Shown in pieces: positions 4,778 through 62,910 of a stretch of 64,000 nt of DNA (positions are counted from its first letter, which is position 1; each line of letters opens with the position of its first letter). The notes under the pieces are model-generated. The model made no database searches and had not been told where the DNA came from. It saw only the letters and a list, made by a program, of their open reading frames with translations. The DNA is from Rhodocyclaceae bacterium (lineage in GTDB: Bacteria > Pseudomonadota > Gammaproteobacteria > Burkholderiales > Rhodocyclaceae), in contig JACAEF010000040.1 in assembly GCA_013388985.1 (NCBI GenBank), positions 1-64,000 on the forward strand, in the 5' to 3' direction. The translations under genes were made by a program, and so were the position numbers.

Positions 4778-5613
4778 GAGGGGGAGATGCTACGCGGCGC
4801 CGGCAGGCCCGAATGCCGGAACAGCCGCGCCAGTTCCGCGCCGGGTGAGGGCGCGCGCATGAAAGCCTCGCCGACCAAGAAGGCATGCACACCATGCTGC
4901 TTCATCAGCGCGACGTCGTCGGGCGAAAGGATGCCGGACTCGGTGACGACGATGCGCCCGGCCGGGATGCGCTCCAGTTGCGACAAGGTGGTGTCGAGGC
5001 TCACCTCGAAGCTGCGCAGGTTGCGGTTGTTGATGCCGATCAGCGGTGTCTTGAGCTTGAGCGCACGGTCGATCTCACCCGCATCGTGGCTCTCGACCAG
5101 CACCGCCATGCCCAGCGAGAAAGCAAGATCCTCGAGTTCTTGCATCTCGCCATCGCTGAGCGCGGCGACGATCAGCAGGATCGCATCGGCGCCCATTGCG
5201 CGGGCTTCATAAACCTGATACGGGTCGATCATGAAGTCCTTGCGCAGCACCGGCAGCGTGCAGGCGTCACGGGCCTCGCGCAGGTATTCCGGTGAGCCCT
5301 GGAAGAACTGCCGGTCGGTGAGCACCGAGAGGCAGGCGGCGCCATGCTTTTCGTAATCGAGGGCGATCTCCGCAGGCCTAAAATCCGGCCGGATCACGCC
5401 TTTCGACGGGCTGGCCTTCTTGATCTCGGCGATCACCGCGGTGCCGGGTGCCGTGTCGCCAGCGCCGACTTTCGCGCGGATCGCGCCGACGAAGTCACGC
5501 GCCGGGGGCTGCCCTTCGGCCTCGGCACGGATCGTCGCCAGCGGCTTGGTGGCTGCTGCAGCGGCGACTTCCTCGCGCTTGACGGCGAGGATTTTCTGCA
5601 GGATATCGCTCAC
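4774..5613 (-). CDS. trpC: Indole-3-glycerol phosphate synthase
   Basis: Closes the indole ring in tryptophan synthesis, converting CdRP to indole-3-glycerol phosphate. At 279 residues it is slightly longer than usual (~260-270). The [14 protein letters not shown] strand, the [22 protein letters not shown] region and the GINNRNL segment are intact. Immediately before [14 protein letters not shown], residues about 48-57 ([10 protein letters not shown]) are encoded by a copy of the dispersed 25-bp repeat at 5448-5472, which probably accounts for the extra length. It is the last gene of minus-strand trpG-trpD-trpC and overlaps the trpD stop by 4 bases. Confidence 0.96.
5448..5472 (+). repeat. 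Dispersed 25-bp repeat, copy 1 (inside trpC)
   Basis: Reads GTGCCGT, GTC, then GCCAGCGCCGACTTT on the plus strand. It lies in frame in trpC (minus strand), where it encodes KVGAGDTA. It fits the window-wide consensus fully. Confidence 0.85.
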
Positions 5614-6632
5614 AGGACGTGGGTGACTTTCACGAATTCTTCGAGTTTCGCCAGCGCCCGGCCGCTCTCGATGGTTTCACGCGCGCGGGCGATGCCGGCG
5701 CCGATGTCCGGGACGAGATTGGCGGTGTAGAGCGCGGCGCCGGCATTCAGGCAGACGATTTCCAGTGCCGGACCCGGCTGGTTGTGCAGGACACCGAGGA
5801 TGCGCCCCTTCGATTCGCTGGCATCCGCGACCCGGAGGTTGCGCGTGGCGATCATCGCCAGGCCGAAATCCTCCGGATGGATTTCGTATTCGCGCACTTC
5901 GCCGTCCTTGAGTTCACCGACCATCGTCGCTGCCCCGAGCGAGATTTCGTCCATGCCGTCCTTGCCGTGGACGACCAGCACGTGCTGCGCGCCGAGCTCC
6001 TTCATCACGCGCACACAGATGCCGACGAGGTCGGGGTGGAACACGCCGAGCAGCGAATTGGGCGCGCCGGCCGGATTGGTCAGCGGTCCGAGGATGTTGA
6101 AGATGGTGCGCACGCCCATCTCGCGGCGCACTGGCGCGACGTTCTTCATTGCTGGGTGGTGGTTCGGCGCGAACATGAAACCCATGCCGGTCTGCTCGAT
6201 GCAGCGGGCCACCTGCGGCGCCTGGAGGTCGATTTTCGCTCCCAGCGCTTCGAGCACGTCGGCGGCGCCGGATTTGGATGACACGCCGCGGTTGCCATGC
6301 TTGGCGACCGTGGCGCCGGCCGCGGCGGCGACGAACGCGGCGGCCGTGGAGATGTTGAAGGTGTGCGAGCTGTCGCCGCCGGTGCCGACGATGTCGACGA
6401 AATGCGGATTGTGCGGCACCTCGACTTTGGTGCAGAGCTCGCGCATCACCTTGGCCGCGGCGGTGATCTCGCCGATGGTTTCCTTCTTCACGCGTAAGCC
6501 AGTAAGGATCGCCGCGATCATCACCGGCGAAACCTCGCCTTTCATGATCTGCCGCATCAGGTGCAGCATCTCGTCGTGGAAGATCTCGCGGTGTTCGATG
6601 GTACGCTGCAGCGCTTCCTGCGGTGTGATCAT
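5610..6632 (-). CDS. trpD: Anthranilate phosphoribosyltransferase
   Basis: Transfers phosphoribose from PRPP to anthranilate, the second committed step to tryptophan. The 340 residues match family length. The glycine-rich [18 protein letters not shown]/metal loop and [21 protein letters not shown] are intact, as are the [15 protein letters not shown] and GPLTNPAGA segments. It sits between trpG (one base upstream) and trpC (4-base overlap), so the three are surely one transcript. Confidence 0.97.
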
Positions 6633-6633
6633 G

Positions 6634-10818: not shown

Positions 10819-12144
10819 ATGATCGATCGCAGGAATTTCATCAAATGGGCCGGGGTCTCCGGCATCGCCTTTTCATCGGCGGGCTGGAGCCTGCTGGCCC
10901 ATGCGGATACGAAAACTGCCTCCTCGACGACCACCGCGACCGCCGCCGTGCCGACCAATACCGGCATCAAAGGACGGGTCGTCGTCATCGGCGGCGGAAT
11001 GGGCGGCGCGACGGTGGCGAAATATCTGCGCTTGTGGGGCGGCACAGGGGTGGACGTGACGCTGATCGAGCGCGACTCCGCCTATACCTCGAACATCATG
11101 AGCAACCTGGTGCTCAATGGCAGCCGCACCATCGGCTCGCTGCAATACGGCTACGGCAACCTGTCGAGCCGTTATGGGGTGAAGGTCGTCAAAGGGGAGG
11201 TCCTCACCATCGATCCGGTGGGCAGGAAGGTCGCCCTCGCGGGCGGCGCGAGCTATGCCTATGACCGGCTGGTGATCGCACCGGGGGTCGACTTCGACAT
11301 CCTGCCCGGCCTCGAAACCGCCGCCGCGCAGGCGAAGGTGCCGCATGCCTGGAAGGCCGGCGCGCAGACGACCGCGCTGCACAACATGATCACGGCGATG
11401 CCCAACGGCGGTGTCTTCGTGATGAGCATTCCGGCCAAGCCTTACCGCTGCCCGCCGGGGCCCTACGAGCGCGCCTGCATCGTCGCCGACTGGCTGAAGA
11501 CCAACCGGCCGGGCTCGAAAGTGATCGTGCTCGATGCCAACCCGGGCATCACGGCCGAGGTCAATGCCTTCACCGATGCCTTCAATGTCGTGCATGCCGG
11601 CGTGATCGAATACCACCCCGGCGTCAGCATCGCCAGCGTCGATGCGACGACGATGACCGTGAATACCAGCATCGGCAACATCCGCGGCAACGTGCTCAAC
11701 CTGATCCCGCCGCACCGCGCCAGCAAGGTGATTTCCGCCAACGGCCTGACCAACACGGCGGATGGCCGCTGGACGGCGGTGAATGTGCTGTCCTACGAGT
11801 CGACGACCGCGCCGGGCATCCATGTCGTCGGCGATGCCTCGGCGACGACCCAACCCAAGGCCGGCCATATCGCCAACCAGGAAGCGAAGGTCTGTGCCGA
11901 CGCGATCCTGCGGCTGCTTTCCGGTCGCGCACCCGATCCGTCGCCGCATACCAACTCGGCCTGCTACTCGCCGATCACCGCGACGACGGCCTCCTGGCTG
12001 ACGGCGAACTTCCGCTACGATGCGACGACGGCGACGATGGTGCCGGTGCCTGCTTCGTCCGGAGAGGCAGCGGCGCGTTCCTCGAAAAATTTCGAGGAGA
12101 TGGGCAAGTGGTTCACCGCGTTGATGGGGGACACCTTCGCATGA
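10819..12144 (+). CDS. fccB: FccB-like flavoprotein (sulfide dehydrogenase flavin subunit)
   Basis: FAD-dependent disulfide-oxidoreductase family protein of 441 residues. A twin-arginine signal starts at DRRNFIKWAG, the FAD Rossmann motif is VVVIGGGMGG (about 54-63), and the C-terminal domain has GIHVVGDA and NSACYSP. Sulfide-oxidising family members carry two redox cysteines. The first is present as Cys211 in YRCPPGPYERA, but the second, normally in a G-W-C-P-V context, is replaced: here the segment reads DGRWTAVNV with Thr319 at that place. The ATG at 10819 has a GAGGAGG site 8 bases upstream and a Tat signal, so longer upstream readings are rejected. Its stop overlaps the first pseudopilin start (ATGA). 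Confidence 0.85.
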   Translation: MIDRRNFIKWAGVSGIAFSSAGWSLLAHADTKTASSTTTATAAVPTNTGIKGRVVVIGGGMGGATVAKYLRLWGGTGVDVTLIERDSAYTSNIMSNLVLNGSRTIGSLQYGYGNLSSRYGVKVVKGEVLTIDPVGRKVALAGGASYAYDRLVIAPGVDFDILPGLETAAAQAKVPHAWKAGAQTTALHNMITAMPNGGVFVMSIPAKPYRCPPGPYERACIVADWLKTNRPGSKVIVLDANPGITAEVNAFTDAFNVVHAGVIEYHPGVSIASVDATTMTVNTSIGNIRGNVLNLIPPHRASKVISANGLTNTADGRWTAVNVLSYESTTAPGIHVVGDASATTQPKAGHIANQEAKVCADAILRLLSGRAPDPSPHTNSACYSPITATTASWLTANFRYDATTATMVPVPASSGEAAARSSKNFEEMGKWFTALMGDTFA

Positions 12145-12545: not shown

Positions 12546-12546
12546 A

Positions 12547-16936: not shown

Positions 16937-17379
16937 AGTCGTCGCGCCTGCCCTGGCTCGTGCTGGTGCTGATCGGGGTGGCGTTGCTGGCCGCCTATGG
17001 CGAAGCCTCCACGCCACCGCCGTCTTCGTCTAGTCTGCCCTACGTCCGGGCGCTCGCGCCACGTCCGGCCGCGCCTGCCACGATGGGCGATCCGTTTTCT
17101 GTTTCCCCGCCGGCACCTGCCGTCGCTTCGCCGGGTGCCGTCCCGCCAGCGCCGACTTTGGCGCCGGCCTTGCCGTGGCGGGTGATCGGCAAGCAATATG
17201 ACGAACAGGAGGGCTGGGCCGTATTCTTGGCGCGCGGCGAGGAAACCCGCATCGTGCGCACCGGCGACACGCTCGACGAAACCTACCGCGTGGTCGCGAT
17301 CCAGCCGCCGGTGCTGACGCTGCAACATCTCAAGCGCGCCACGCGCCAAACACTCGACATCGGAGAAGCCAGGGAATGA
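16933..17379 (+). CDS. PilP/GspC-like pilot-linker protein
   Basis: Protein of 148 residues: N-terminal membrane anchor (about 7-25), a long Pro/Ala/Ser-rich linker (about 30-80), then a small beta domain (WRVIGKQYDEQEGWAVFLAR ... GDTLDETYRVVAI) like the HR domain of GspC or PilP, which contacts the secretin. The linker contains a copy of the dispersed 25-bp repeat in frame (17135-17159, encoding AVPPAPTL). Overlaps the secretin start by 4 bases. Confidence 0.65.
   Translation: MKSSRLPWLVLVLIGVALLAAYGEASTPPPSSSSLPYVRALAPRPAAPATMGDPFSVSPPAPAVASPGAVPPAPTLAPALPWRVIGKQYDEQEGWAVFLARGEETRIVRTGDTLDETYRVVAIQPPVLTLQHLKRATRQTLDIGEARE
17135..17159 (+). repeat. Dispersed 25-bp repeat, copy 2 (inside gspC/pilP-like gene)
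   Basis: GTGCCGT, CCC, GCCAGCGCCGACTTT in the Pro/Ala linker, coding strand. Its reading frame differs from that used in trpC or the hydrogenase-like gene. Matches the consensus exactly. Confidence 0.85.
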
Positions 17380-20792: not shown

Positions 20793-21479
20793 TCAGCCTG
20801 TCTCTTCGGCGAGGAACGCCCTTGCCGCTGCCGTGCGCGGCTGATGGAAGAACTCACTGACCGGCGTTTGTTCGAGCAAGCGTCCTGCTTCGAGATAAAG
20901 CACCTCCTCGGCAATGCGGCGTGCCTGACCGAGATTGTGAGTGGCCATGACGATCTTCGTGCCGCTCGCGGCGATCTCGCCGATGATGCGTTCGACCTCG
21001 TGGCGGCTGAGCGGATCGAGACTGGCGGTCGGCTCGTCGAGGAACAGTACCTGCGGCTCCAGCGCCCAGACGCGCGCCAGCGCGATGCGCTGCTGCTCGC
21101 CGCCGGAAAGCCGGCGTCCCTGCCGCTGCACTAGATGTGACAGCCCCACGCGTTCTAACGCCGACAGTGCCCTTTTGCGACGTTCCCGTGCGGATACGCC
21201 ACGCAACTTCAGACCATACTCAATGTTGGCGAGCACGGTCGTACGCAACAGGATCGGTCGCTGGAATACCATCGCCTGTGTGAGTGGTCGTGGCCAGATC
21301 ACAGATCCCGCATCCGGCCGCAATAGACCATGCATCAGCCGCAGCAGCGTGCTTTTGCCCGCACCGTTGGGGCCGATCAGTGCCGTCTTGCCTGCGCCGA
21401 GTTTCAATTCGATATCGGACAGGATGCACACCGTGCCTTCCGTGCGCCTAAGGCTCCGTAGTTCGATCCAGTGGCTCAT
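20793..21479 (-). CDS. tupC: Tungstate-type ABC transporter ATP-binding protein
   Basis: ABC ATPase of 228 residues energising uptake with TupA and TupB. Walker A GPNGAGKST, signature LSGGEQQRIALARVWALEP, Walker B VLFLDEPTASLD and the MATHN switch histidine are all present. Start MSHWIELR at 21479 overlaps the permease stop (ATGA); seven further upstream residues are possible but unneeded. It is last in tupA-tupB-tupC on the minus strand. Confidence 0.88.
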   Translation of the reverse strand: MSHWIELRSLRRTEGTVCILSDIELKLGAGKTALIGPNGAGKSTLLRLMHGLLRPDAGSVIWPRPLTQAMVFQRPILLRTTVLANIEYGLKLRGVSARERRKRALSALERVGLSHLVQRQGRRLSGGEQQRIALARVWALEPQVLFLDEPTASLDPLSRHEVERIIGEIAASGTKIVMATHNLGQARRIAEEVLYLEAGRLLEQTPVSEFFHQPRTAAARAFLAEETG

Positions 21480-23001: not shown

Positions 23002-24461
23002 TCGGCCATGTCGGCGGCTTTCAGCTGCGCTTTCGCCTTGTTGAGCGTTTCCTGCCATTCGCTCTCCGGGTCGGAGTCGGCGACGATGCCGGCGCCGGCC
23101 TGGACGAAGATGCGACCGTCCTTCACCACCGCGGTGCGGATCGCGATGCACAGGTCCATATCGCCGTTGAAGCCGAGATAGCCGACCGCGCCGGCGTAGA
23201 TGCCGCGCTTGGTCGGTTCCAGCTCGTCGATGATTTCCATCGCGCGCACCTTCGGCGCGCCGGAGACGGTGCCGGCGGGGAAGGTGGCTTTGAGCACCGA
23301 CAGCGGGCCTTCGTCGTCCTTCAGTTCGGCTTCGACGTTGGAGACGATGTGCATCACGTGCGAGTAGCGTTCGATGGTGTATTGGTCGGTGACGCGGACG
23401 GTGCCGATCTTGGCGACGCGGCCGATGTCGTTCCTGCCGAGGTCCAGGAGCTGCAGGTGTTCGGCGCGCTCCTTCGGGTCGGCCAGCAGCTCCGCGGCCA
23501 GGCGCGCGTCCTCGGCGGCATTCGCGCCGCGCTTGCGGGTGCCGGCGATCGGCCGTACGGTGACCTTGCGCTTGCCGTCTTCCGCTTCGAGGCGCACGAG
23601 GATTTCCGGTGAAGCGCCGACGACCTGGAAGTCGCCGAAGTCGAAGAAGAACATGTAGGGCGAGGGGTTGAGCGTGCGCAAGGCCCGGTAGAGCGCCAGG
23701 GGGCTCGCCGCATAGGGGCGGCTCATGCGCTGCGAGAGCACGACCTGCATGATGTCGCCGTCGACGATGTATTGCTTCGCGCGCCGCACGGCGGCCTTGA
23801 AGTCATCCTCGGCGAATTCGAAACTCGGCGGCTCCGGGACGGCACGGCTGTCCTGCGGCAGCTTTACCGGTGCGCGCAGGCGGACGAGCAGCTCTTTGAG
23901 GCGCGCCTGCGCATGGCGCCAGGCGCCGGGAAAGCCCGGCTCGGCATAGACGACGAGGGTGAGCTTGCCCGAGAGGTTGTCGACGATGGCGATTTCTTCG
24001 GAGAGCAGCAGCAGGATGTCCGGAACGTCGAGCGGATCGGGCTTTTGCGTGTCGGCGAGCTTCGGTTCGATGTAACGCACCGTGTCATAGCCGAAATAAC
24101 CCACCAGGCCGCCGGTGAAGCGCGGCAGACCGGGAATGTCCGGCACCTTGAAGCGCGCCATGAACTCGGAGATGTAGGACATCGGGTTGGTGTGCTCGCG
24201 GCGTTCGGCGACGCGGTTGCCCGACAGCAGCAGGATGGTCGAGCCGGTGACGGCGATGCGGGTCGGCGTGGTGAGCCCGATGAACGAATAGCGGCCGAAG
24301 CGCTCGCCGCCTTGCACCGATTCGAGCAGATAGGAATGCGGGCCGTCGGCGAGCTTGAGGTAGATGGAGAGCGGGGTATCGAGATCGGCGAAGGTCTCGA
24401 GGGTGACGGGGATGCGGTTGTAGCCCTCGCGGGCCAGACGGTCGAAATCGGCTTCGTTCAT
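22974..24461 (-). CDS. trpE: Anthranilate synthase component I
   Basis: Makes anthranilate from chorismate with ammonia from TrpG. The 495 residues match family length. The N-terminal LLESVQGGERFGRYSFIGL carries the tryptophan feedback site element LLES, and the C-terminal chorismate-binding domain has IAGTRKRGANAAEDARLAAEL, DLGRNDIGRV, TFPAGTVSGAPKVRAMEIIDELEP and QAGAGIVADSDPE. ATG 24461 overlaps the gph stop by 4 bases, so order rpe-gph-trpE-tupABC reads as one transcript. Confidence 0.97.
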   Translation of the reverse strand: MNEADFDRLAREGYNRIPVTLETFADLDTPLSIYLKLADGPHSYLLESVQGGERFGRYSFIGLTTPTRIAVTGSTILLLSGNRVAERREHTNPMSYISEFMARFKVPDIPGLPRFTGGLVGYFGYDTVRYIEPKLADTQKPDPLDVPDILLLLSEEIAIVDNLSGKLTLVVYAEPGFPGAWRHAQARLKELLVRLRAPVKLPQDSRAVPEPPSFEFAEDDFKAAVRRAKQYIVDGDIMQVVLSQRMSRPYAASPLALYRALRTLNPSPYMFFFDFGDFQVVGASPEILVRLEAEDGKRKVTVRPIAGTRKRGANAAEDARLAAELLADPKERAEHLQLLDLGRNDIGRVAKIGTVRVTDQYTIERYSHVMHIVSNVEAELKDDEGPLSVLKATFPAGTVSGAPKVRAMEIIDELEPTKRGIYAGAVGYLGFNGDMDLCIAIRTAVVKDGRIFVQAGAGIVADSDPESEWQETLNKAKAQLKAADMAECGLDTRFD

Positions 24462-28720: not shown

Positions 28721-29971
28721 TTAGCTGCGGTAATCGGCATTGATCTTCACGTAATCGTAGCTGAGGTCGCAGGTCCACACCTGCGCGGTGTGGCTGCCGC
28801 GGCCGAGATCGACGCGCACGCGGATCTCGGCGGCTTTCATGATGCGCGCGCCGTCTTCTTCACGATAGCTCATTGCCCGTCCGCCGTTTTCGGCGACGAG
28901 CACTTCCTCGCCATTGCTGCCGAGCCAGACCTTCACCTTGCTGTCGTCGAGATCGGCGAGGCCGGGATCGTTGTTCCAGGCATAGCCGATCGCAGCGAGG
29001 ATGCGGCCGAGGTTGGGATCGGAGGCGAAAAAGGCGGTCTTCACCAGCGGCGAATGGCCGATCGCATAGCCGACCGCCTTGCATTCCCCGCGGCTGCGGC
29101 CGCCGGTGACGAGGATCTCGATGTATTTGCTCGCCCCTTCGCCGTCGCGCACGATCGCCTGCGCGAGCTCGCGCGCGACGTCGATCACGGCCTGCTTGAA
29201 TTCGCCCCAGCCCGGCGCGTCGACGCTTTCGAACTTCGCCGGCCCACGGCCGGTGGCGATCAGCACGAAGGAATCGTTGGTCGAGGTGTCGCCATCGACG
29301 GTGATGCAGTTGAAGGATTCGTCGGCCGCTTCCTTGACGAGGCGGTCGAGCATCGGCTGGCTGACCGCCGCGTCGGTGGCGACGAAGCCGAGCATCGTCG
29401 CCATGTTCGGGCGGATCATGCCGGCGCCCTTGGCGATGCCGGTGATCACCACTGCCGTGTCGCCAGCGCCGATTTTGCGCGAGGCGGCCTTGGCGACGGT
29501 ATCGGTGGTCATGATCGCGTGCGCGGCATCAAACCAGCCGTCGGCCTTCAATGCCGAGAGGGCTGCCGGCAGACCGGCCTTCAGGCGCTCGACCGGCAGC
29601 GGTTCGAGGATCACGCCGGTGGAAAAAGGCAGCACCTGGGAGGCAGCCAGGTCCATCAGCTTCGCCACCGCGGCGCAGGACTGTCGGGCGGCGACGAGCC
29701 CGGCCTCGCCGGTGCCGGCGTTGGCGATGCCGGTGTTGATCACCAGCGCGCGGATGCCCTCCTGCTTCAGGTGCTCGCGGCAGACCTGCACCGGGGCGGC
29801 GCAGAAGCGGTTCTGCGTGAATACCCCGGCGACCCGGCTGCCGGGGGCGAGCTCGATCAGCGTCAGGTCGCGGCGGTTGGCCTTGCGGATGCCAGCGGCG
29901 GCCGTGCCCAGGCGCACGCCGGCGACGGGGTGGAGTTGGTCGGGAGCGGGAGTGAGGTAATTGACGGGCAT
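28721..29971 (-). CDS. argJ: Bifunctional glutamate N-acetyltransferase / N-acetylglutamate synthase
   Basis: Transfers acetyl groups from N-acetylornithine to glutamate (arginine cycle) and may also make N-acetylglutamate. It has 416 residues. It self-cleaves at the Ala-Thr bond in [14 protein letters not shown], with Thr192 becoming the nucleophile of the beta chain. Residues about 166-173 (KIGAGDTA), shortly before this, are encoded by a dispersed-repeat copy. Start MPVNYLTP at 29971 lies one base after glnE. Confidence 0.96.
29452..29476 (+). repeat. Dispersed 25-bp repeat, copy 3 (inside argJ)
   Basis: CTGCCGT, GTC, GCCAGCGCCGATTTT on the plus strand; coding strand of argJ reads KIGAGDTA, almost the same peptide and frame as in trpC (KVGAGDTA). 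Two positions differ from the commonest form (C at position 1, T in GAYTTT). Confidence 0.8.
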
Positions 29972-37310: not shown

Positions 37311-37335
37311 AAAATCGGCGCTGGCGAGACGGCAG
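37311..37335 (-). repeat. Dispersed 25-bp repeat, copy 4 (nitrilase-tldD gap)
   Basis: On the minus strand reads CTGCCGT, CTC, GCCAGCGCCGATTTT. Intergenic; its A-rich end lies just beside GGTAAAAAT, which could serve as part of a -10 element for tldD. Confidence 0.8.
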
Positions 37336-39959: not shown

Positions 39960-41480
39960 ATGCCCCTCGTATCCGTCCGCTTCTTCCTCGTTGCCGCCGG
40001 ACTGACGCTCGTCTTCCGCCTCTGGCTGGCCGCCGTGTTGCCGATGACCGGCGACGAGGCGTATTTCTACTGGTGGGGGCGGCTGCCCGACTGGGGCTTC
40101 TACGACCATCCGCCGATGATCGGCTGGTGGCTCGCCGGACTGCTGACGGTGAGCGATGCCGCCTGGTGGCTGCGGCTGCCGCAGATCGTGCAGCCGCTGC
40201 TGCTCGCCCTCGCGGTGCGGTGGGCCTGGCCGCGGCTCTTTCCGCAGGCGCGCGCGCAGCGCGACGGTGTGGCGACGCTGGTGCTGCTCGCGCCGCCGTT
40301 CGTCTGGAACGTGCTGGTCACCACCGATACCGCACTGGTCTATTGCGCGGTGCTGTCGGGACTGGCCTGGCTGCTGGCCGTCCGCGACGATGATTGGCGC
40401 TGGTATCTCGCGGCCGGCCTGCTGCTCGCCGGCGCGGTGCTGTCCAAATATTTCGCCGCGCTGCTCGGTTTCGGTTATCTGGTCGATGTGCTGCGCCGGC
40501 GCAGGGTCGCGGCCTGGCGGGGCTTGCTCATCGTCTATGCCTGCTGCGTTCCGGCGCTGGGGCTGATGGCATGGTGGAACAGCGAACACTGCTGGACGAA
40601 CTATCTGTTCAATTTCGTCAATCGCCACGGTGCGGCGAATACCGGCTTCAACCTGAAGACACCGCTGCTGTATCTGGTGACGCTGCTCTATGTGCTGACG
40701 CCGCCGGCAGTCTGGACGCTGCTGCGGCGCGGCCCAGGGTGCCGTGCCACCAGCGCCGAGTTTGCGATCGAGCGCAGCCTGCTGCTGCTCGCGGCGGTGC
40801 CGCTCATGCTGTTCGCGCTGCTCTCGCTGTTCAAGACCATCGGCCTGCACTGGGTGCTGTCCTTCGTGCCGTTCGCGCTGCTGTTGGCGGTGCGCCGCCT
40901 CGCGCCGCGCGGCCTGGAGAGGCTCGTGCGCTTCTGCGCCGGCTTCGCCGTGCTGCACGTCGCGCTGTTCGTCGTGCTCGCCAGCCTGCCGCTGGAGACC
41001 TGGCGCTCGCTGAGCCTCTATCCGGGCATCGTGTTGACCTATGACGGCCGCGCGCTGGTCGAGCGTGCCGCGCCGGGCGATGCCCTGCTGGCCTCGGATG
41101 GCTATTCGAATGCCGCGATCCTCGGCTACCAGCTGCGCCGCCATGTGCCGGTGTTGGGCATGGGCTCGGGGCATGCGCGTCACGACGACATCCTCACCGA
41201 CTGGCGCCAATTCGATGGCCGCGACATCACCGTGCTGCGCAAGACCGCGCCGAATCCCGGCGAATACGATGGCTGGTTCCGCAGCGTGACGATCGACGGC
41301 TTCGAGCATCGCGGCGCGCGATTCTGGGTGGTGCGCGGCCGGGGCTTCGATTACCCGCGCTATCGTGATACCGTGCTGGCGCAGATCCGCCGCCAGTATT
41401 ACGGCGTGCCCGCCTGGTTGCCGCTTTCCGGCTGTTATTTCTGCGCGCGTTATTTTCCTGATACACCATGCCGCCGTTGA
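39960..41480 (+). CDS. GT39/ArnT-like membrane glycosyltransferase
   Basis: Polytopic membrane protein of 506 residues with about ten to twelve hydrophobic segments. The first periplasmic loop GDEAYFYWWGRLPDWGFYDHPPMIGWW has the catalytic-type acidic pair (DE) of the PMT/ArnT superfamily. Such enzymes move sugars from polyprenyl phosphates to lipid A, glycans or proteins. The next gene is a UbiA-type polyprenyl transferase that could make the donor. ATG 39960 is used; a TTG 18 bases earlier is possible. Confidence 0.8.
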   Translation: MPLVSVRFFLVAAGLTLVFRLWLAAVLPMTGDEAYFYWWGRLPDWGFYDHPPMIGWWLAGLLTVSDAAWWLRLPQIVQPLLLALAVRWAWPRLFPQARAQRDGVATLVLLAPPFVWNVLVTTDTALVYCAVLSGLAWLLAVRDDDWRWYLAAGLLLAGAVLSKYFAALLGFGYLVDVLRRRRVAAWRGLLIVYACCVPALGLMAWWNSEHCWTNYLFNFVNRHGAANTGFNLKTPLLYLVTLLYVLTPPAVWTLLRRGPGCRATSAEFAIERSLLLLAAVPLMLFALLSLFKTIGLHWVLSFVPFALLLAVRRLAPRGLERLVRFCAGFAVLHVALFVVLASLPLETWRSLSLYPGIVLTYDGRALVERAAPGDALLASDGYSNAAILGYQLRRHVPVLGMGSGHARHDDILTDWRQFDGRDITVLRKTAPNPGEYDGWFRSVTIDGFEHRGARFWVVRGRGFDYPRYRDTVLAQIRRQYYGVPAWLPLSGCYFCARYFPDTPCRR

Positions 41481-43559: not shown

Positions 43560-43584
43560 AAAGTCGGCGCTGGCGGGACGGCAC
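43560..43584 (-). repeat. Dispersed 25-bp repeat, copy 5 (upstream of pduO)
   Basis: Minus strand reads GTGCCGT, CCC, GCCAGCGCCGACTTT, exact consensus, identical to the copy in the gspC-like gene. Lies in the divergent gap between pduO and psiE, next to the pduO start. Confidence 0.85.
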
Positions 43585-48854: not shown

Positions 48855-48879
48855 AAATTCGGCGCTGGCGGAACGGCAC
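48855..48879 (-). repeat. Dispersed 25-bp repeat, copy 6 (before the TSUP-USP stop)
   Basis: Minus strand reads GTGCCGT, TCC, GCCAGCGCCGAATTT. It lies between the response-regulator start and the stop of the TSUP-USP gene, one base after that stop on the minus strand. One mismatch to the consensus tail. Confidence 0.8.
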
Positions 48880-53320: not shown

Positions 53321-53345
53321 GTGCCGTCCTGCCAGCGCCGACTTT
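53321..53345 (+). repeat. Dispersed 25-bp repeat, copy 7 (SulP-hyfB gap)
   Basis: GTGCCGT, CCT, GCCAGCGCCGACTTT starting the base after the SulP stop codon, before hyfB. Exact consensus. A TATAAT lies 10 bases downstream of it (53356-53361). Confidence 0.85.
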
Positions 53346-56332: not shown

Positions 56333-56994
56333 GCCAGGCCGTGCCCCTCTACGCCCAGCTCATCAACCTTCTGGCCGCGGTGATCCTGCTGCTCGGTTTC
56401 GCGATGCTCGCGCAGCGGCGCGTGATCCAGCTGATCGACCTGTTCGCCCTGCAGGGCTTCGCGCTGTTCCTGTCGACGCTGGTGGTGGCGGTGAAGACCG
56501 GCCAGCACCATCTGTTCTACTCGGCCGGACTGACGCTGGTGCTGAAAGTCATCCTGCTGCCCTGGATCCTGCACCGTCTGGTGCGCAAGCTGCACATCAA
56601 GGGCGAGGTCGAGGGGCTGATCAACATTCCGACGACGACGCTGATCGGTCTCGGCCTGGTCATCATCGCCTTCAACGTCGCGACACCGATCTCGCAGCTG
56701 TCTTCCACCATCACGCGTGGCACGCTCGGCATCGCGCTCGCCACCGTGATGCTTGCCTTTTTGATGATGATCACGCGTAAGAAGGCGATCACCCAGGTGG
56801 TCGGCTTCCTGGCGATGGAAAACGGTCTGTTCCTCGCCGCCACCTCGGCGACCTACGGCATGCCGATGGTGGTCGAGCTCGGCATCGCGCTCGACGTGCT
56901 GGTCGGCATGGTCATCCTCGGCGTGTTCTTCTTCCAGATCCGCGACCAGTTCGACAGCCTCGACATCCATCACATGGAGCAGCTCAAGGAATAG
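56329..56994 (+). CDS. hyfE: Hydrogenase-4-type membrane subunit E (NuoK-like)
   Basis: Membrane protein of 221 residues with about six to seven segments, HyfE family. Motifs are KTGQHHLFYSAGLTLVLKVILLPWIL, GLINIPTT and the NuoK-like GFLAMENGLFLAATSATYGMP followed by ELGIALDVLVGMVILGVFFF. Overlaps hyfC by 4 bases and lies 2 bases before hyfF. HyfD is absent, as in smaller group 4-like complexes. Confidence 0.92.
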   Translation: MSQAVPLYAQLINLLAAVILLLGFAMLAQRRVIQLIDLFALQGFALFLSTLVVAVKTGQHHLFYSAGLTLVLKVILLPWILHRLVRKLHIKGEVEGLINIPTTTLIGLGLVIIAFNVATPISQLSSTITRGTLGIALATVMLAFLMMITRKKAITQVVGFLAMENGLFLAATSATYGMPMVVELGIALDVLVGMVILGVFFFQIRDQFDSLDIHHMEQLKE

Positions 56995-56996
56995 CG

Positions 56997-58454
56997 ATGA
57001 CGCTGGATTTCTTCGCCCTCACGCTGCTCATCCCGTTGCTTTCCGGCATCCTGCTCTCGTTCGCGGGCGAGCGCCACTGGGCACCGCATCTGAACATCAT
57101 CGCCAGCGCCGCGACGTTCCTCTCTGCCGCGGGGCTGACCGCCGAGATCATCGATCAGGGGCCGCGCTTCGCCTTCGGCGAGCAGTTCTTCATCGACTCG
57201 ATGAACGTCTTCTTCGTCACGCTCACCGCCTTCGTCGGCATGACCACGGCGATCTTCTCCGATCCCTACATGAAGAACGACCGCTCGCACGGCAAGCTCA
57301 CGCCGGCGCGCCTGCGGCTCTACAAGAGCATGTACCAGCTCTTCATGTGCACGATGCTGGTGGCGCTGACCACCAACAATCTCGGCATCCTCTGGGTGGC
57401 GATGGAGGCGGCGACGCTCACCACCGTGCTGCTCGTCTCGCTCTACCGCTCGCCGGCCAGCCTGGAGGCGGCGTGGAAGTATTTCATCCTCTGCGGCGTC
57501 GGCATCGCCCAGGCGCTGTTTGGCACGATCCTGCTCTATTTCGCGGCGGAACGCATCCTCGGCGAATCCGGCACGGCGCTGCTGTGGTCGCATCTGGTCG
57601 AGGTCAAGGGTCAGCTCGATCCGACCATCATGGCGCTCGCCTTCATCTTCCTGCTGGTCGGCTACGGCACGAAAGTGGGACTGGCGCCGATGCACAACTG
57701 GCTGCCCGACGCCCATGCCGAAGGTCCGACGCCCGTCTCCGCGGTGCTCTCGGGCCTGTTGCTCAACGTCGCACTCTACGCGATCCTGCGCTGCAAGGTG
57801 CTCGCCGACGGCGCCTTGCATACCGACTTCGCCGGCAACCTGATGATGGGCTTCGGCATCTTCACGCTGCTCGCCGCCGCCTTCTTCCTCGGCCGCCAGC
57901 GCGACGTCAAGCGCATGTTCGCTTATTCTTCGATCGAGCACATGGGCATCATCACCTTCGCCTTCGGCATGGGCGGCCCGGTGGCGAGCTTCGCCGGCTT
58001 CTTGCACATGACGATGCATTCGCTGGTCAAGTCGGCGATCTTCTTCGCCGTCGGCCATGCCGCGCAGAAGTGCGGCACACAGATCATGGAGGACATCCGC
58101 GGCCTGAAGCGCATCAATCCGCTGATCGGCTGGGGGCTGATGCTCGGCACGCTCGCCATCCTCGGCATGCCGCCGTTCGGCGTCTTCGCCAGCGAATTCA
58201 TGATCCTCACCCACGCGATGAAGTTCCATCCCTGGGCCACACCCTTCCTGTTGCTGGGCCTCGGCGTCGCCTTCGCCTCGATCCTCGCCAAGGTGCAGCC
58301 GATGGTGTTCGGCGAATCCGAGGCCAAGCCCCTGCCGCACGCGCCCGCCATCACGCCGGTCTTCGTGCACCTGGGCCTTGCATTGATGATGGGCCTGTGG
58401 ATCCCGCCCTATCTCTCGCGCTGGTTCCTTGAGGCCGCGCGTATGCTGGGGTGA
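56997..58454 (+). CDS. hyfF: Hydrogenase-4-type membrane subunit F (antiporter-like, NuoM/N family)
   Basis: Second antiporter-like pump subunit, 485 residues, about 14 segments. Key elements are NNLGILWVAMEAATLTTVLLVSLYRSP (Glu in membrane segment 5) and GYGTKVGLAPMHNWLPDAHAEGPTPVSAVLSGLLLN (Lys and His channel residues), plus MFAYSSIEHMGIITFAFG and HMTMHSLVKSAIFFAVGHA. Typical of HyfF. Stop is 4 bases before the large-subunit ATG. Confidence 0.93.
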   Translation: MTLDFFALTLLIPLLSGILLSFAGERHWAPHLNIIASAATFLSAAGLTAEIIDQGPRFAFGEQFFIDSMNVFFVTLTAFVGMTTAIFSDPYMKNDRSHGKLTPARLRLYKSMYQLFMCTMLVALTTNNLGILWVAMEAATLTTVLLVSLYRSPASLEAAWKYFILCGVGIAQALFGTILLYFAAERILGESGTALLWSHLVEVKGQLDPTIMALAFIFLLVGYGTKVGLAPMHNWLPDAHAEGPTPVSAVLSGLLLNVALYAILRCKVLADGALHTDFAGNLMMGFGIFTLLAAAFFLGRQRDVKRMFAYSSIEHMGIITFAFGMGGPVASFAGFLHMTMHSLVKSAIFFAVGHAAQKCGTQIMEDIRGLKRINPLIGWGLMLGTLAILGMPPFGVFASEFMILTHAMKFHPWATPFLLLGLGVAFASILAKVQPMVFGESEAKPLPHAPAITPVFVHLGLALMMGLWIPPYLSRWFLEAARMLG

Positions 58455-58458
58455 CACG

Positions 58459-60018
58459 ATGCGTTTTCATGCCGAACCGATCGAATTCACGCGCCAGCCC
58501 GGCGTCGGCGCGCCGATCTGGCGCGGCCAGACCGCCGATCGGGAAGACTGGCTGCGCTTTGCGATCTCCGTGCACCGTCACGCCGGGCGTCTGTGCGCGC
58601 TGTGGGGCAGCGACGAGCGCTGCAGCGGTGGCGGTTTCCGCGTCCATGCGGTGTTCGCGCTCGACGAGGGCTGGCCCTATCTCACCCTCGACCTGCCGGC
58701 CGACGATCCGGTCTATCCCGATCTGTCCGGCATCTTCGCGGCGGCGAACCGCATGCAGCGCGCCACTTACGATCTGGTCGGCATCCGTCACGACGGCGAG
58801 GACCGGCGGCCGTGGCTGCGTCACGGCGGCTGGCCGGCCGACTGGTTCCCGCTGCGCCACGATGCCAATCATCCGCCCGCGCACGAAAACCTGCCGAGCG
58901 ACTACGACTTCGTCCAGGTCGGCGGCGAGGGCGCGCATGAAATCCCGGTCGGCCCGATCCACGCCGGCATCATCGAGCCGGGCCATTTCCGCTTCACCGT
59001 GGTCGGCGAACGCGTGCTGCGCCTCGAACAACGTCTCGGCTACCAGCACAAGGGCATCGAGTGCCGTCTCGCCAGCGCCGACTTTGCGACCGGCGCCCGG
59101 CTGGTCGGGCGCGTCTCCGGCGATTCGACCGTGGCCTTTTGCTGGGCCTATGCCGATGCGCTGGAAGCGGCCTGCGGCGTGACGCCGCCGCCACGCGCGC
59201 TGGCGCTGCGGGCGCTGCTGCTCGAACGCGAGCGCGTCGCCAACCATCTCGGCGATCTCGGCATGCTCGGCAACGATGCGGCGCTGGCCTTCGGGCTGTC
59301 GCAGTTCTTCCGCCTCAAGGAAGACTGGGTGCGCCTCAATGCCCAGGTGTTCGGCCACCGCTTCCTGATGGACAGCATCGTGCCAGGCGGCGTGGCGGTC
59401 GATGTCGAGGCACGGCATCTCGCCGCGATCGTCACGCAGTGCGAGAGCATCGGACGCGCGGTCAAGGAATTGCAGCGCATCTACGACGAGCATTCCGGCT
59501 TGCAGGACCGTTTCCTCACCACCGGCCCGATCGACGCCCGGCTGGTGCGCGAGCTGTCGCTGTCCGGCATGGCCGCGCGCGCCGCCGGCGTGTTGCTCGA
59601 TGCGCGTTGCCATCGGCATGGCTACGCACCGCCGCCGCCGTGGAACCGTTTGGCGGTGCGGCCGGCTTCCGACGAGCGCGGCGACGTCGCGGCGCGCGTC
59701 GCCGTGCGCTTCGCGGAGATTTACGAATACCTGCGCCTGATCCGTCTGCTTGCCGCCGACATGCCCGCTGGCGAGATCCGCGGCACGGTCGAGCCCGTGG
59801 CCGGCGCTGCCGGTGTCGGCATCGTCGAGGGCTGGCGTGGCGAAGTGATCGTCGGCGTGCAACTGGGCGCGGACGGCAAGATCGCCCGCTGCCATCCGCA
59901 CGATCCTTCCTGGCAGGCCTGGCCGGCGCTCGAACACGCGGTGCTCAACGACATCGTGCCGGATTTCCCGCTCATCAACAAATCGTTCAACCTTTCCTAC
60001 TCCGGCCAGGACATATGA
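58459..60018 (+). CDS. Hydrogenase-like large subunit without NiFe-site cysteines (HyfG/NuoCD type)
   Basis: Soluble arm subunit of 519 residues: NuoC-like domain (about 1-150) fused to NuoD/hydrogenase large-subunit domain (about 160-519). Real group 4 hydrogenases bind NiFe through two CxxC motifs. Here the first site reads RVSGDSTVAFCWA (Ser and Ser where Cys are needed, about 218-225), and the C terminus ends FNLSYSGQDI with no CxxC, so no NiFe centre can form. This matches the energy-converting hydrogenase-related (Ehr) class. Residues about 202-209 (CRLASADF), just before this site, come from a dispersed-repeat copy at 59061-59085. ATG 58459 preferred. Confidence 0.88.
   Translation: MRFHAEPIEFTRQPGVGAPIWRGQTADREDWLRFAISVHRHAGRLCALWGSDERCSGGGFRVHAVFALDEGWPYLTLDLPADDPVYPDLSGIFAAANRMQRATYDLVGIRHDGEDRRPWLRHGGWPADWFPLRHDANHPPAHENLPSDYDFVQVGGEGAHEIPVGPIHAGIIEPGHFRFTVVGERVLRLEQRLGYQHKGIECRLASADFATGARLVGRVSGDSTVAFCWAYADALEAACGVTPPPRALALRALLLERERVANHLGDLGMLGNDAALAFGLSQFFRLKEDWVRLNAQVFGHRFLMDSIVPGGVAVDVEARHLAAIVTQCESIGRAVKELQRIYDEHSGLQDRFLTTGPIDARLVRELSLSGMAARAAGVLLDARCHRHGYAPPPPWNRLAVRPASDERGDVAARVAVRFAEIYEYLRLIRLLAADMPAGEIRGTVEPVAGAAGVGIVEGWRGEVIVGVQLGADGKIARCHPHDPSWQAWPALEHAVLNDIVPDFPLINKSFNLSYSGQDI
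59061..59085 (+). repeat. Dispersed 25-bp repeat, copy 8 (inside the large-subunit gene)
   Basis: GTGCCGT, CTC, GCCAGCGCCGACTTT on the coding strand, encoding CRLASADF between the conserved GYQHKGIE and the ARLVGRVSGDS segments. Exact consensus. Confidence 0.85.
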
Positions 60019-60087
60019 CCCGACTTCCCCCAGCTCCCTCTTCGCAGAGGGGCAGACTTCCAGAACGCAGCGCTCGGTGAGGAACTG

Positions 60088-60606
60088 ATGCTCTCGCTCC
60101 TCAAACGCATTGCCAAGACCGGCATCGTCACCGAGCCGGCGCCCGGGACGGACGACATGCGGCGCGAAATCGATCGTCTGCAGGACGAGGTGCTGAACAT
60201 CCTCGGCCGCGCGCTGACGATCCGCGAGGTCGATGCCGGCTCCTGCAACGCCTGCGAGCTGGAGATCCACGCGCTGAACAATCCCTACTACAACCTCGAA
60301 GGCCGGGGCATCAAGTTCGTCGCCAGCCCCCGGCACGCCGACATGCTGCTCGTCACCGGGCCGGTGACGAAGAACATGGAGAACGCGCTGAAGATCGCCT
60401 ACGAGTGCACGCCCGACCCGAAGCTGGTCGTCGCAGTCGGCGATTGCGGCTGCGGCTGTGGCGAGATCGGGCGGCTGTTCGGCCCGAATTACGCGACCGT
60501 CGGGCCGGTCGAGGCGGTGCTCCCGGTCGATGTCAAGGTGCCCGGCTGTCCGCCGACGCCGATCGCGCTGATGCAGGGTATCCTCGCCGCGGTGCGGACG
60601 CGCTGA
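60088..60606 (+). CDS. hyfI: Hydrogenase-like small subunit (HyfI/NuoB type)
   Basis: Iron-sulfur subunit of 172 residues, equal to NuoB, carrying one proximal 4Fe-4S cluster. Candidate ligands are Cys53 and Cys56 (GSCNACELE), Cys120 (VGDCGCGCG, extra Cys122 and Cys124) and Cys154 (VPGCPPTPIALM). The cluster ligands are kept although the adjoining large subunit has lost the NiFe site, so electron transfer probably still occurs. GTGAGGAACTG precedes ATG 60088; it lies 69 bases after the large-subunit stop. No separate ferredoxin-like subunit (HyfH/NuoI) is seen. Confidence 0.92.
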   Translation: MLSLLKRIAKTGIVTEPAPGTDDMRREIDRLQDEVLNILGRALTIREVDAGSCNACELEIHALNNPYYNLEGRGIKFVASPRHADMLLVTGPVTKNMENALKIAYECTPDPKLVVAVGDCGCGCGEIGRLFGPNYATVGPVEAVLPVDVKVPGCPPTPIALMQGILAAVRTR

Positions 60607-60620
60607 AACGGGTGCCGCCG

Positions 60621-60636
60621 ACCCGCTGAAGCGGGT
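60621..60636. terminator. Hairpin between convergent hyfI and carbonic anhydrase genes
   Basis: Perfect 6-bp stem ACCCGC / GCGGGT with a TGAA loop between two convergent genes, directly followed by a dispersed-repeat copy (60635-60659). There is a short nearby duplication of the CTGAA-CGGGTGCC pattern. Without a T tract its terminator role is a guess. Confidence 0.4.
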
Positions 60637-60659
60637 GCCATTGCGGCAGCGCCGACTTT
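60635..60659 (+). repeat. Dispersed 25-bp repeat, copy 9 (hyfI-carbonic anhydrase gap)
   Basis: GTGCCAT, TGC, GGCAGCGCCGACTTT; the most diverged copy (two core changes), touching the last base of the stop codon of the convergent carbonic anhydrase-like gene. Confidence 0.7.
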
Positions 60660-61729
60660 CAGCGCGTGATCAGCTCCAGCCGACGGGAATGCCAGTCGAG
60701 CACCGCCGTGCGGATGGTCATCTTCTCCGCCAGCGCGGGGAACTCCTGACGGATCACCTCGCTGGCGAAGCGCGTCAGGAAGCGGCTCTTCACCTCGGCG
60801 CGGGCGCGGTCGACGCCGATTTCGTCATAAGGCGCCGAGGTCAGCAGCAGCATGCCATCGTCGGGGATGCGGCCGGCCGCCATGTTGGACTGGATGATGC
60901 CGGCGGCGCGATGGATCGGCTCGGCAAGGTTCGGGCTGTAAGGGCCGATGATCAGCGCGACGTTCGGCGTGTGCAGGAAGTCGAAGCCGCGGCCGAGGCA
61001 GATCATCCACTCGCGGTGCTCGATGTCGAGCAGGCGTTCGTTCCTGCGGATCTGCGCGCGGATGTCGTCGATGTGCTCGAGATTGCCGTGCAGGAGCGGC
61101 AGCAGGTCGTGGCGCATTTGCGCCGGCATGTCGGGCAGCAAGGCGGCGAGCCGCAGATCGAGATTGGCGCGCTCGCTCGCCGTGAGATTGGCCAGTTCGA
61201 GCTTTTCGCCCTTGCTGCCATGGACGATCAGCGCGTCCTCGTCGGTTTCCAGGCCGACGACGAGCGGATAGACCGTGCCATGCCCGCTGCCGAAGATGGT
61301 TTCGACCTGCTGGCGGATCTCCAGCGTATGCGCTATCGCTGCCGCCGTGTCATGATTGAAGCCGGCACAGCCGCGCTGCGGGTCGCCTTGCGAGAAATGG
61401 TAGTTGATGATGACGAGCACGCGCCGGCCGGCATTGACCATGCGCTGGACGTGATTGGCCAGCACCTCGCCGAGATGCGGCCAGCCGAGATCGAAGCGGC
61501 CACCGAGATTGCGGAAGGGCATCAGGATGCCGACCGGCGTGTTGGTGACGACGGGGATATTGACGCGGCCGTCCATGCATTTGAGCACGGCGATCGCGGT
61601 CGGATGCTCGGCCAGATAGCGTTGCCGCGCCAACGTCGCTTCCGGGCTGCCGAAATTCGCGGCGTGGCGGTCGGCGAGGTCGAAGAGCCAGTCGATGCGT
61701 TCCTGGATCGGTTTGCCGTGGATGGTCAT
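60659..61729 (-). CDS. Carbonic anhydrase-like protein with CsoSCA-type zinc ligands
   Basis: Soluble protein of 356 residues. LKCMDGRVNI gives the C-x-D-x-R block of beta carbonic anhydrases (Cys51, Asp53, Arg55), and INYHFSQGDPQRGCAG supplies His111 and Cys121. The ten-residue His-Cys distance is unlike the HxxC of ordinary beta enzymes and close to the long spacing in the carboxysome shell enzyme CsoSCA, from memory. No carboxysome shell or Rubisco gene is in the window. It has no signal peptide. ATG 61729 lies 2 bases after the alcohol dehydrogenase stop; the longer upstream frame is antisense noise. Confidence 0.72.
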   Translation of the reverse strand: MTIHGKPIQERIDWLFDLADRHAANFGSPEATLARQRYLAEHPTAIAVLKCMDGRVNIPVVTNTPVGILMPFRNLGGRFDLGWPHLGEVLANHVQRMVNAGRRVLVIINYHFSQGDPQRGCAGFNHDTAAAIAHTLEIRQQVETIFGSGHGTVYPLVVGLETDEDALIVHGSKGEKLELANLTASERANLDLRLAALLPDMPAQMRHDLLPLLHGNLEHIDDIRAQIRRNERLLDIEHREWMICLGRGFDFLHTPNVALIIGPYSPNLAEPIHRAAGIIQSNMAAGRIPDDGMLLLTSAPYDEIGVDRARAEVKSRFLTRFASEVIRQEFPALAEKMTIRTAVLDWHSRRLELITR

Positions 61730-61731
61730 GG

Positions 61732-62910
61732 TCAGAGGCGCTCCGCAAGGATGTATTCGATTTCCGCGTCGGTGAGCTCGACCGGATTGGTCTTCATGCT
61801 GCTGCCGCGGCAGTGGGCGACGAGGCGCGGAAAGTCGGCGCTGGTGACACGGCACGCGGACAGGCGCGGCAGCGCGAGTGCGCGTTCCCACTGGCGCAGC
61901 GTGTCGAGGAGATGGGCGCGCGCCGCGTCGCCGTTCAGGCCTTTTTGCATCGCGAAACGCCGGCCGATCTCGGCGTATTTCGGCAGCGCCGGACTGTCGG
62001 GGCTGCGCTGTTTGAGCGCCTCGATATTGACGGCCGTGGTCGTCGCGAGCAGCGTGCCGCAGGCCAGGCCGTGCGGGATCGGGAAGCAGGCCCCCAGCGG
62101 TGCGGCCAGCCCGTGCACGGCGCCCAGGCCGGTGTTGGCGAGGCAGATGCCGGAGACGAGCGCCGCATAAGCCATCTTCTGCCGCGCCGCGGCGTCGGCC
62201 GGGTCGTGGTAGAAGGGCAGCAGGCCGTCCTTCACCGCCATGATGCCGCTTCGGGCCAGCGCGTCGGTGAGCGGATTGGCGCGGCGCGAGACGAAGCTCT
62301 CCAGCAGCTGGGTGAAGGCATCCATGCCGTCGGCGGCGATCAGCGGCGGCGCGCAGCTGGCGAGCAGGTCCGGATCGACGATCGCCCATTGCGCCACCAG
62401 TTGCTCGTCGCGGAAGGATTTCTTGAATTTCCCCGGCTCACCGATCACCGCATTCTTCGTTACTTCCGAGCCGGTGCCGGCGGTGGTCGGCACGGCGATG
62501 AAAGGCGTGGCCGGGCCGCGGTAGGGCAGCTCCGGGCCGACGCCTTCGAGGTGATCCAGCACCGAGTTGCCGGGCTTGAGGAGTCCCGCGATCGCCTTCG
62601 CGGCGTCGAGCACGCTGCCGCCGCCGATGCCGATCACCGCGGCGAATTCCTCGCCGCGCAGGCGGGCGACGGCATCATCGACGAACGCCACGGTGGGCTC
62701 GCCGGCGACGCGGAGGGTTTCCCAGCTGCAGCCGCGCTGGCGCAGCGCCTCGAACAGCGGCGGCGCATGGGGAGATTCGAGGAAGCTGCGCTGGCCGGTG
62801 ACGAGCAGCAGACGCGTGCCGTAGCCGGCGGCGAGGGCGGGAACTTTTTGCACTGCGCCGCTGCCGAACTCGATCCGCGGCAGACGGCCGATGGAGAAGG
62901 GTGGGAACAT
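61732..62910 (-). CDS. Iron-containing alcohol dehydrogenase
   Basis: Group III (Fe-dependent) alcohol dehydrogenase of 392 residues. The GGGSVLDAAKAIA NAD-binding signature, PTTAGTGSEVTKNAVI, and the iron-ligand region DGMDAFTQLLESFVS with HGLAAPLGACFPIPHGLACG (histidines) are present. Substrate unpredictable. Near the C terminus a dispersed-repeat copy encodes CRVTSADF. It precedes the carbonic anhydrase-like gene and is divergent from the ferredoxin reductase gene over 42 bases. Confidence 0.92.
   Translation of the reverse strand: MFPPFSIGRLPRIEFGSGAVQKVPALAAGYGTRLLLVTGQRSFLESPHAPPLFEALRQRGCSWETLRVAGEPTVAFVDDAVARLRGEEFAAVIGIGGGSVLDAAKAIAGLLKPGNSVLDHLEGVGPELPYRGPATPFIAVPTTAGTGSEVTKNAVIGEPGKFKKSFRDEQLVAQWAIVDPDLLASCAPPLIAADGMDAFTQLLESFVSRRANPLTDALARSGIMAVKDGLLPFYHDPADAAARQKMAYAALVSGICLANTGLGAVHGLAAPLGACFPIPHGLACGTLLATTTAVNIEALKQRSPDSPALPKYAEIGRRFAMQKGLNGDAARAHLLDTLRQWERALALPRLSACRVTSADFPRLVAHCRGSSMKTNPVELTDAEIEYILAERL
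61831..61855 (-). repeat. Dispersed 25-bp repeat, copy 10 (inside alcohol dehydrogenase gene)
   Basis: Coding strand reads GTGCCGT, GTC, ACCAGCGCCGACTTT, one change in the core. It encodes CRVTSADF in the same frame as in the hydrogenase-like gene, at a place where relatives also have a similar ADFP sequence. Confidence 0.75.

Follow-up and report, generated by a model that had tools for sequence, protein, structure and literature searches.

A 25-bp bipartite repeat of Rhodocyclaceae with the hallmarks of a DNA uptake sequence

How does a short DNA sequence come to lie in hundreds of near-identical copies, both inside and between unrelated genes, and what keeps the copies alike? The question is raised by a stretch of 64,000 nucleotides from a Rhodocyclaceae bacterium (assembly GCA_013388985.1, contig JACAEF010000040.1, positions 1 to 64,000; hereafter the window), in which a preliminary description had listed ten copies of a dispersed 25-bp repeat. 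Its spread had been likened to the DNA-uptake signals of Neisseria and Haemophilus or to Rickettsia palindromic elements (RPEs), with a chromosome-organising role as a further possibility. Following the repeat through its genome and relatives, we consider it likely, on the strength of sequence comparison, that it is a DNA uptake sequence. It is also probable that no such system has been known before beyond Neisseriaceae and Pasteurellaceae, and that the repeat is an independently evolved, bipartite 25-bp self-tag that would be read over more than two helical turns, has dialects across at least six environmental betaproteobacterial genera, and marks core as against conjugative or plasmid DNA. 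No description of this repeat was found in the open-access literature among the matches listed.

Copy number, anatomy and placement

All ten sites first listed are present. Seven match the proposed pattern exactly, those at 48855 and 61831 have one mismatch and that at 60635 has two, while two further copies at 21380-21404 and 40739-40763 had been overlooked, which brings the total to 12. These 12 copies (up to three mismatches, both strands) compare with none, a mean of 0.00, in 100 dinucleotide-preserving shuffles of the window. When the spacer and position 20 are ignored, eight, three and one places have zero, one and two mismatches, respectively, and no place has three; 40 composition-matched shuffled motifs find no window place at zero to two mismatches. 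The whole genome (2.90 Mb, 156 contigs) holds 207 exact copies, 98 forward and 109 reverse, against no match to the pattern read backwards, far from the near-chance number that would have counted against the proposal. Such strong genome-wide over-representation on both strands belongs to the features of the uptake class.

The consensus in the source genome is (G)TGCCGT-SYY-GCCAGCGCCGAYTTT, a bipartite unit in which two constrained blocks, TGCCGT (6 bp) and GCCAGCGCCGAYTTT (15 bp), are separated by a free 3-bp spacer. In a stack of 37 source-genome copies with no more than two mismatches, drawn from the window and 23 loci, the unit starts with G (34/37) or C ahead of TGCCGT and ends with TTT, the three spacer letters are loose (mostly S, Y and Y), and one letter near the 3' end is mostly C or T (33/37). 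The edges are sharp, with no marked conservation in the 40 bp on either side of the stacked copies, and the unit is not palindromic.

Copies lie inside and between genes and in both orientations, as had been proposed: by open reading frames (ORFs) and Pfam, 7 of the 12 window copies are within ORFs and 5 are in gaps. A crude codon-usage classifier, whose trend is likely right and whose size is rough, called 16 of 36 copies coding in the source genome against 0.82 of 1500 random window positions, 22 of 45 in the close relatives G002 and G017 against 0.66 of 1280 positions, and 46 of 103 in other carriers, a figure given without background. It called the copies at 21380 and 61831 non-coding although both are in Pfam-supported ORFs, and therefore understates the coding share. 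A tilt towards permissive, non-coding places together with a well-conserved sequence is another feature of the uptake class, and is seen here with the coding share as this crude classifier gives it. Coding copies use four of the six frames in the source-genome sample, where at least two had been claimed, and all six when samples are pooled, two of these being rare (1 and 2 copies); the frame reading KVGAGxTA is favoured.

This placement bears on whether the repeat is a transcription-related site, that is, an operator, a terminator or an RNA element. The five window copies in gaps, some of which immediately follow a stop codon or precede a start codon, fit such a role. However, the copies number hundreds, occur in both orientations and are often intragenic in several frames, and those of the window are single rather than inverted pairs, so that we hold this explanation to be quite improbable.

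The copies show no strand polarity either. The 50 exact copies on the main contig of G002 have no replichore polarity (permutation p = 0.94), and the 73 forward-strand copies on the single contig of G017, the strand used for this test, are uniformly distributed (Kolmogorov-Smirnov p = 0.16). A strand-polar site was rejected on this ground; the polarity along replichores expected of Chi or of FtsK-orienting polar sequences (KOPS) is absent from the same 50 sites. Known Chi sites are also far shorter than 25 bp. Both the lack of orientation bias and the length of the repeat argue against a hotspot signal for recombination or repair, whether it acts after uptake or independently of it, an explanation that we rate as improbable, although dispersed placement on both strands would suit it and Neisseria uptake sequences have been tied to recombination in the available text of PMC2397512.

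Conservation, gain and loss of copies

The window copies were aligned against G002 and G017 in 24 comparisons, of which 6 gave no alignment, 4 contained inserts and 14 were clean. Taking as an orthologous copy any alignment without insert that keeps at least 18 of the 20 constrained letters, 9 of the 12 copies have a counterpart in one or both of these relatives. Two of the others have no alignment, and the copy in trpC is ambiguous, since the linker there exceeds that of the window by 42 nt in the relatives. In both relatives this longer linker seems to hold two same-orientation repeat copies, full or partial. Across the 14 clean alignments the 20 constrained positions are identical in 265 of 280 cases and the four free positions, picked after viewing the copy stacks, in 25 of 56, while identity in the flanks is 0.71-0.86, apart from one short alignment (0.91 over 11 letters). 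The same letters vary within one genome and between species, a sign that selection or drive acts on the DNA sequence of the repeat itself.

Could a conserved peptide explain the coding copies instead? Orthologs of these were sought by tblastn among the fetched loci, and for 28 of the 45 copies with a usable frame there is a relative whose identity over the copy reaches 50% or more. The exact copy at 29452..29476 (+), within argJ (28721-30049, minus strand), encodes KIGAGDTA, and seven of eight relatives align there gaplessly with other residues; the eighth has its own copy nearby and a 2-residue gap. At a second place in argJ the Sulfuritalea-like records read KVGAGATA or KVGAGGTA, and all eight relatives align without gap, six of them tagless. 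With several frames in use, many non-genic copies, and different peptides in tagless orthologs, the conserved peptide was rejected.

The same alignments bear on whether the repeat is a mobile or formerly mobile short element that inserts in genes and gaps, such as a repetitive extragenic palindrome (REP), a miniature inverted-repeat transposable element (MITE) or an RPE-like element. Near-identical dispersed copies inside and outside genes would fit this, as would length differences in 28 of 66 pairs with a tagless relative and a difference of 8 residues (24 nt) at one copy between records L049 and L046, both of which keep a KVGA piece. Against it, 38 of the 66 pairs are of equal length, and a shortfall in the relative of exactly 8 residues, which would match the unit, is seen only once, at 37311, upstream of a start codon. 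The cases of gain or loss point the same way. The argJ copy aligns without gap to G002, which differs by its gain or loss; a place at 23821..23845 (-), within an anthranilate-synthase-I-type gene (22974-24572, minus), has a full copy in G017 and a substitution-decayed one in the window, again in a gapless alignment; and G002 has lost the exact copy at 59061..59085 (+), which lies within a complex-I-type (49/30 kDa) gene, in an alignment with two 1-base gaps, one per side, that cancel out. The clear gains and losses of copies are substitutions. Since copies do not look like insertions, orthologs differ at free and not at core positions, and there is no extended unit, flank conservation or palindrome, the mobile element is largely refuted and very improbable, and the proposed likeness to RPEs is not supported.

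The surroundings of the remaining copies are varied. The exact copy at 5448..5472 (+) is within a trpC-type gene (ORF 4774-5613, minus; Pfam IGPS) at a site where solved homologs, in alignments from the PDB, differ by 4 residues in length. Another exact copy, at 17135..17159 (+), is within an ORF without Pfam hit (16933-17379) that adjoins a secretin gene; it sits inside a type II/IV-secretion-like cluster at 12141-20048 with a GspE-type ATPase, a secretin and three prepilin-type genes (12141, 19193 and 19674). Copies with two mismatches lie at 21380..21404 (+), within an ABC-transporter ATPase (20793-21500, minus) immediately ahead of GPNGAGKST, and at 40739..40763 (+), within a PMT_2 glycosyltransferase gene, and a probable decayed copy is found at about 31328-31352 (+). 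Among the copies in gaps, exact ones separate a nitrilase gene from tldD (37311..37335, -), lie immediately upstream of a cobalamin adenosyltransferase gene (43560..43584, -) or follow directly 3' of the stop codon of a sulfate-transporter-type gene (53321..53345, +), and one with a single mismatch (48855..48879, -) lies between a TauE/Usp gene and a response-regulator gene. A CsoSCA-like gene (60659-62389, minus) contains a copy with one mismatch at 61831..61855 (-) and has another, with two, in the gap at its 3' end (60635..60659, +). This gene lies close to a pair of Proton_antipo_M genes and to complex-I-type genes of the 49/30-kDa and 20-kDa kinds, with a SulP-type transporter adjoining (51185-62389), and the group may serve inorganic-carbon uptake in an autotroph.

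Dialects, distribution and mobile DNA

The repeat is not the same in all its hosts. Five records of named relatives, found via the TldD protein, have variants of the forms CACCGT..., CGCCGT... and ...CCAACTTT, and in random stretches of the carriers G002 and G026 pieces of the motif account for most of the top 12-mers without prior motif input. The form TGCCGT-SYY-GCCAGCGCCGAYTTT of the source genome is replaced by CGCCGTCYCGCCAGCRCCGACTTTT in G026, by ...GCCAGCGCCAACTTT and TGCCGTACCGCTAGC... in the Sulfuritalea records L049 and L064, respectively, by CGCCGTaTCaCC... in G187 and by CGCCGCCcCGCCAGCGCCGAgTTT in G016 (12 sites in 40 kb, 3.0 per 10 kb), several of these samples being small (5 to 12 sites). 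G016 is empty by the exact pattern yet carries its own form, and was therefore rejected as a tagless member of the genus; it belongs to the same genus as the window, so the form has changed within a genus. Three Sulfuritalea-like records have two orthologous copies in common, at one of which L049 has its own ...CCAACTTT and at the other the common ...CCGACTTT. Dialects between related species, a further feature of the uptake class, are therefore present, G009 being mixed.

How far does the repeat extend? The exact pattern matches in 17 of 19 genomes of the source genus, and among 42 further genomes two have 6-7 matches and two have one. A dialect-tolerant pattern (variant forms allowed, plus one mismatch) finds 163-604 matches in each of 53 genomes out of the 395 sampled from the family; five of the remainder have 10-39 and the others no more than 8, while a reversed control pattern gives 0 or 1 match per genome. 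These 53 high-copy genomes span six genera (17, 21, 1, 1, 4 and 9 genomes). Beyond the family the numbers drop: a sample of 291 genomes of the order contains none with more than 5 matches, and in a 369-genome sample of the class no genome of another family exceeds 2, the two samples having three genomes in common. Two genomes could be matched to named records: G261 is Sulfuritalea sp. UWPOB_SULF1 (20,000 of 20,000 bases identical), and G004 corresponds to Rhodocyclaceae bacterium RC263 bin.43, with which it shares a 600-base piece of the TldD locus without difference, as well as the coordinates. The source organism belongs to the same genus as G004.

G005, labelled as the source genus, has no match by the tolerant pattern, no site in 61 kb sampled, and a long branch in the TldD tree. 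G277, with 10 matches where the 21 other members of its genus have 215-562, is nested among carriers in this tree. The high-copy rows form three groups there with an unresolved backbone, and the carrier label needs 6 changes, at least 4 of them forced by well-supported branches, when G277, G086, G064 and L045 are scored as non-carriers, L045 only since its 13 kb hold no match. One or several origins of the system are possible. Some genomes without the repeat system have a few copies clustered in 5-41 kb (L345 and L346 in G123, L344 in G795), which are possibly DNA imported from carriers. For example, 0.5 kb of the low-copy region of G123 matches the carrier G219 at 92%, and also the non-carriers G036 and G106 at 77-80%, which is no more than suggestive of an import. 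A regular array of thirteen GCAACAGCTATAC copies, spaced about 87 bp or multiples of it, was seen in the non-carrier G036 (L220, 14121-15687).

Mobile DNA was sampled through the TraI_2 relaxase, whose gene is present in 17 of 52 genomes. In carriers, 23 relaxase loci have no copy in 76.4 kb, against 10 copies in 75.4 kb at 17 TldD core loci. Two relaxase-bearing, plasmid-like contigs of G002 (149 and 103 kb) give 1 weak match in 240 kb where about 37 would be expected, and the main contig has 46 copies in 300 kb; this set and that of the relaxase loci overlap by two loci. One relaxase region of G009 has 7 copies on one side and none in the 20 kb beyond, and another, of 40 kb, has 1 copy (other sample: 6 in 40 kb). 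In regions of the same size, G187 has 1 copy (other sample: 13 in 100 kb) and G110, within its chromosome, has none (other sample: 5 in 60 kb). The lack in mobile DNA that characterizes the uptake class thus holds for relaxase-bearing DNA. For phages, three terminase loci give 1 weak match in only 10.8 kb, and prophages of the Terminase_6N kind seem scarce in high-copy genomes, with hits in 3 of 53, mostly incomplete assemblies. A scan of a viral collection of 2.9 million contigs matched 29 stretches; one record filed as viral (L124, IMGVR_UViG_3300009945_000063) has four exact copies on one strand within 1.4 kb (883-2239); it may come from a host, or from a virus that makes use of the tag.

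These results also bear on a chromosome-organising or maintenance site, at which an intracellular protein would bind the 25 bp chromosome-wide for nucleoid structuring, segregation or repair. The large number of chromosomal copies, their unbiased spread, their positional conservation and their lack on relaxase-bearing contigs would all suit such a site. KOPS-type sites, in contrast, are strand-polar, and twenty constrained positions are long for chromosome-organising sites. Moreover, the relaxase regions inside the G110 and G187 chromosomes have 0 and 1 copies, in small samples, and the dialects change between sister species. The role suggested at the outset is kept as an option, less likely than uptake and, in our judgement, unlikely.

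Proposed uptake route and comparison with known systems

If the repeat is an uptake sequence, tagged free DNA would be preferred by a DNA receptor on the cell surface, which would belong to the type IV pilus or the competence apparatus and would probably be a minor pilin. The pilus would pull such DNA in; ComEC would pass one strand into the cytoplasm, and recombination would fix it. Because tagged fragments would be taken up more often, recombination with kin would re-impose the tag wherever the chromosome tolerates it, as molecular drive plus selection, and DNA arriving by other routes would lack it. We infer the preferential uptake, the receptor and the drive. Competence machinery, expected of the uptake class, is present, a weak point as it is common in control genomes too: ComEC passes the family cut-off in all 43 genomes tested, of which 18 are high-copy, and prepilin signatures occur in 17 of 17. 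Such genes show capacity at most, and the tag would be a specificity layer on common machinery.

In search of the receptor, 116 predicted prepilin proteins, some counted twice, from the fetched parts of 17 genomes were clustered. Within these parts no cluster of at least two consists of high-copy genomes only; four clusters combine high-copy genomes with G005 or G277 and include none of six non-carriers, which may reflect the parts fetched. FimT-type and 4-cysteine pilins occur in minor-pilin clusters of carriers and non-carriers alike. FimT binds DNA, and a 4-cysteine minor pilin and a FimT-type pilin are candidate receptors. Minor pilins bind DNA in known systems, as stated in the available text of PMC12616744.

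Several observations weigh against an uptake sequence. Inserts fall within the copy in 4 of 18 aligned ortholog pairs, and 28 of 66 pairs with a tagless relative differ in length, even if the copies at 37311 and 43560, upstream of start codons, account for 17 of them. ComEC is found in 12 of 14 control genomes and prepilin signatures in 8 of 14, and both kinds of gene are equally present in family members without the repeat. The lack of copies on plasmid-like contigs also fits a chromosomal-organisation site, the spacing of exact copies in G002 is random (coefficient of variation 0.97) and not more even than that, and G009 mixes dialect forms in the first letters (7 sites). Finally, searches of the open-access literature brought up no account of natural transformation in this lineage.

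What would an uptake sequence in these bacteria mean? Self-specific uptake has so far been described in two families, of which the best-studied species are inhabitants of humans and animals. If the present reading is true, a third, unrelated signal in environmental bacteria would indicate that the trait evolves repeatedly and is no host-associated speciality. The dialects of close species would provide a natural series for finding the receptor by co-evolution, and the length and two-block build of the repeat would test ideas on how pilins read DNA. In addition, a tag that marks native DNA can be of use in telling mobile elements and imports apart when metagenomes are assembled.

Among known elements, REPs, MITEs and RPEs share with the repeat that they are short and dispersed, and RPEs occur inside genes. 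The repeat differs from all three in having no insertion footprint, palindrome or flanking unit. The DNA uptake sequence (DUS) of Neisseriaceae is a contiguous 10-12-mer of the GCCGTCTGAA type. Neither such an oligomer nor the DUS decamer is contained in the constrained positions here, the part after GCCGT being the free spacer. The inner CTG of the DUS can be read as a trinucleotide in the constrained block, on its reverse strand, but this has no discriminating value. As to its receptor ComP, 4-cysteine minor pilins are found in carriers and non-carriers, and phmmer with one of them returned general pilin hits only. The 5' block has some likeness to the Neisseria DUS, and the 3' block to the Haemophilus uptake signal sequence (USS); both were put down to chance.

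Published sources allow a closer comparison. Neisseriaceae and Pasteurellaceae are called the only families with known uptake sequences (PMC12616744, 2025). Uptake sequences are described as non-palindromic, commoner than expected in non-coding DNA and without orientation bias around the chromosome (PMC1939737), with a reported intragenic orientation bias (PMC2346458). Like the repeat, the Neisseriaceae DUS has many dispersed copies and species dialects (PMC3630211), and lies in the core genome and not in acquired or conjugative DNA, in permissive places, with a well-conserved sequence (PMC2397512, PMC7371117); conjugative elements of Neisseria were found by the same contrast between tag-poor and core DNA (PMC7371117). 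It differs in its host family and in being contiguous, up to about 13 nt (PMC12616744), whereas the repeat has 25 bp in two blocks with a free spacer. The Pasteurellaceae USS resembles the repeat in being long, discontinuous and dispersed. Its core of 9 bp, AAGTGCGGT or ACAAGCGGT, is followed downstream by two AT-rich regions (PMC12616744), whereas both blocks of the repeat are GC-rich and the USS core is absent, GCGG appearing only where the free spacer ends in CC. The likeness to DUS and USS first proposed is thus borne out by copy number, presence on both strands, in coding and non-coding DNA, dialects, positional conservation, change by substitution and not insertion, and lack in mobile DNA: the repeat appears to have the published hallmarks of the Neisseria DUS and the Haemophilus USS, and by its letters it is neither.

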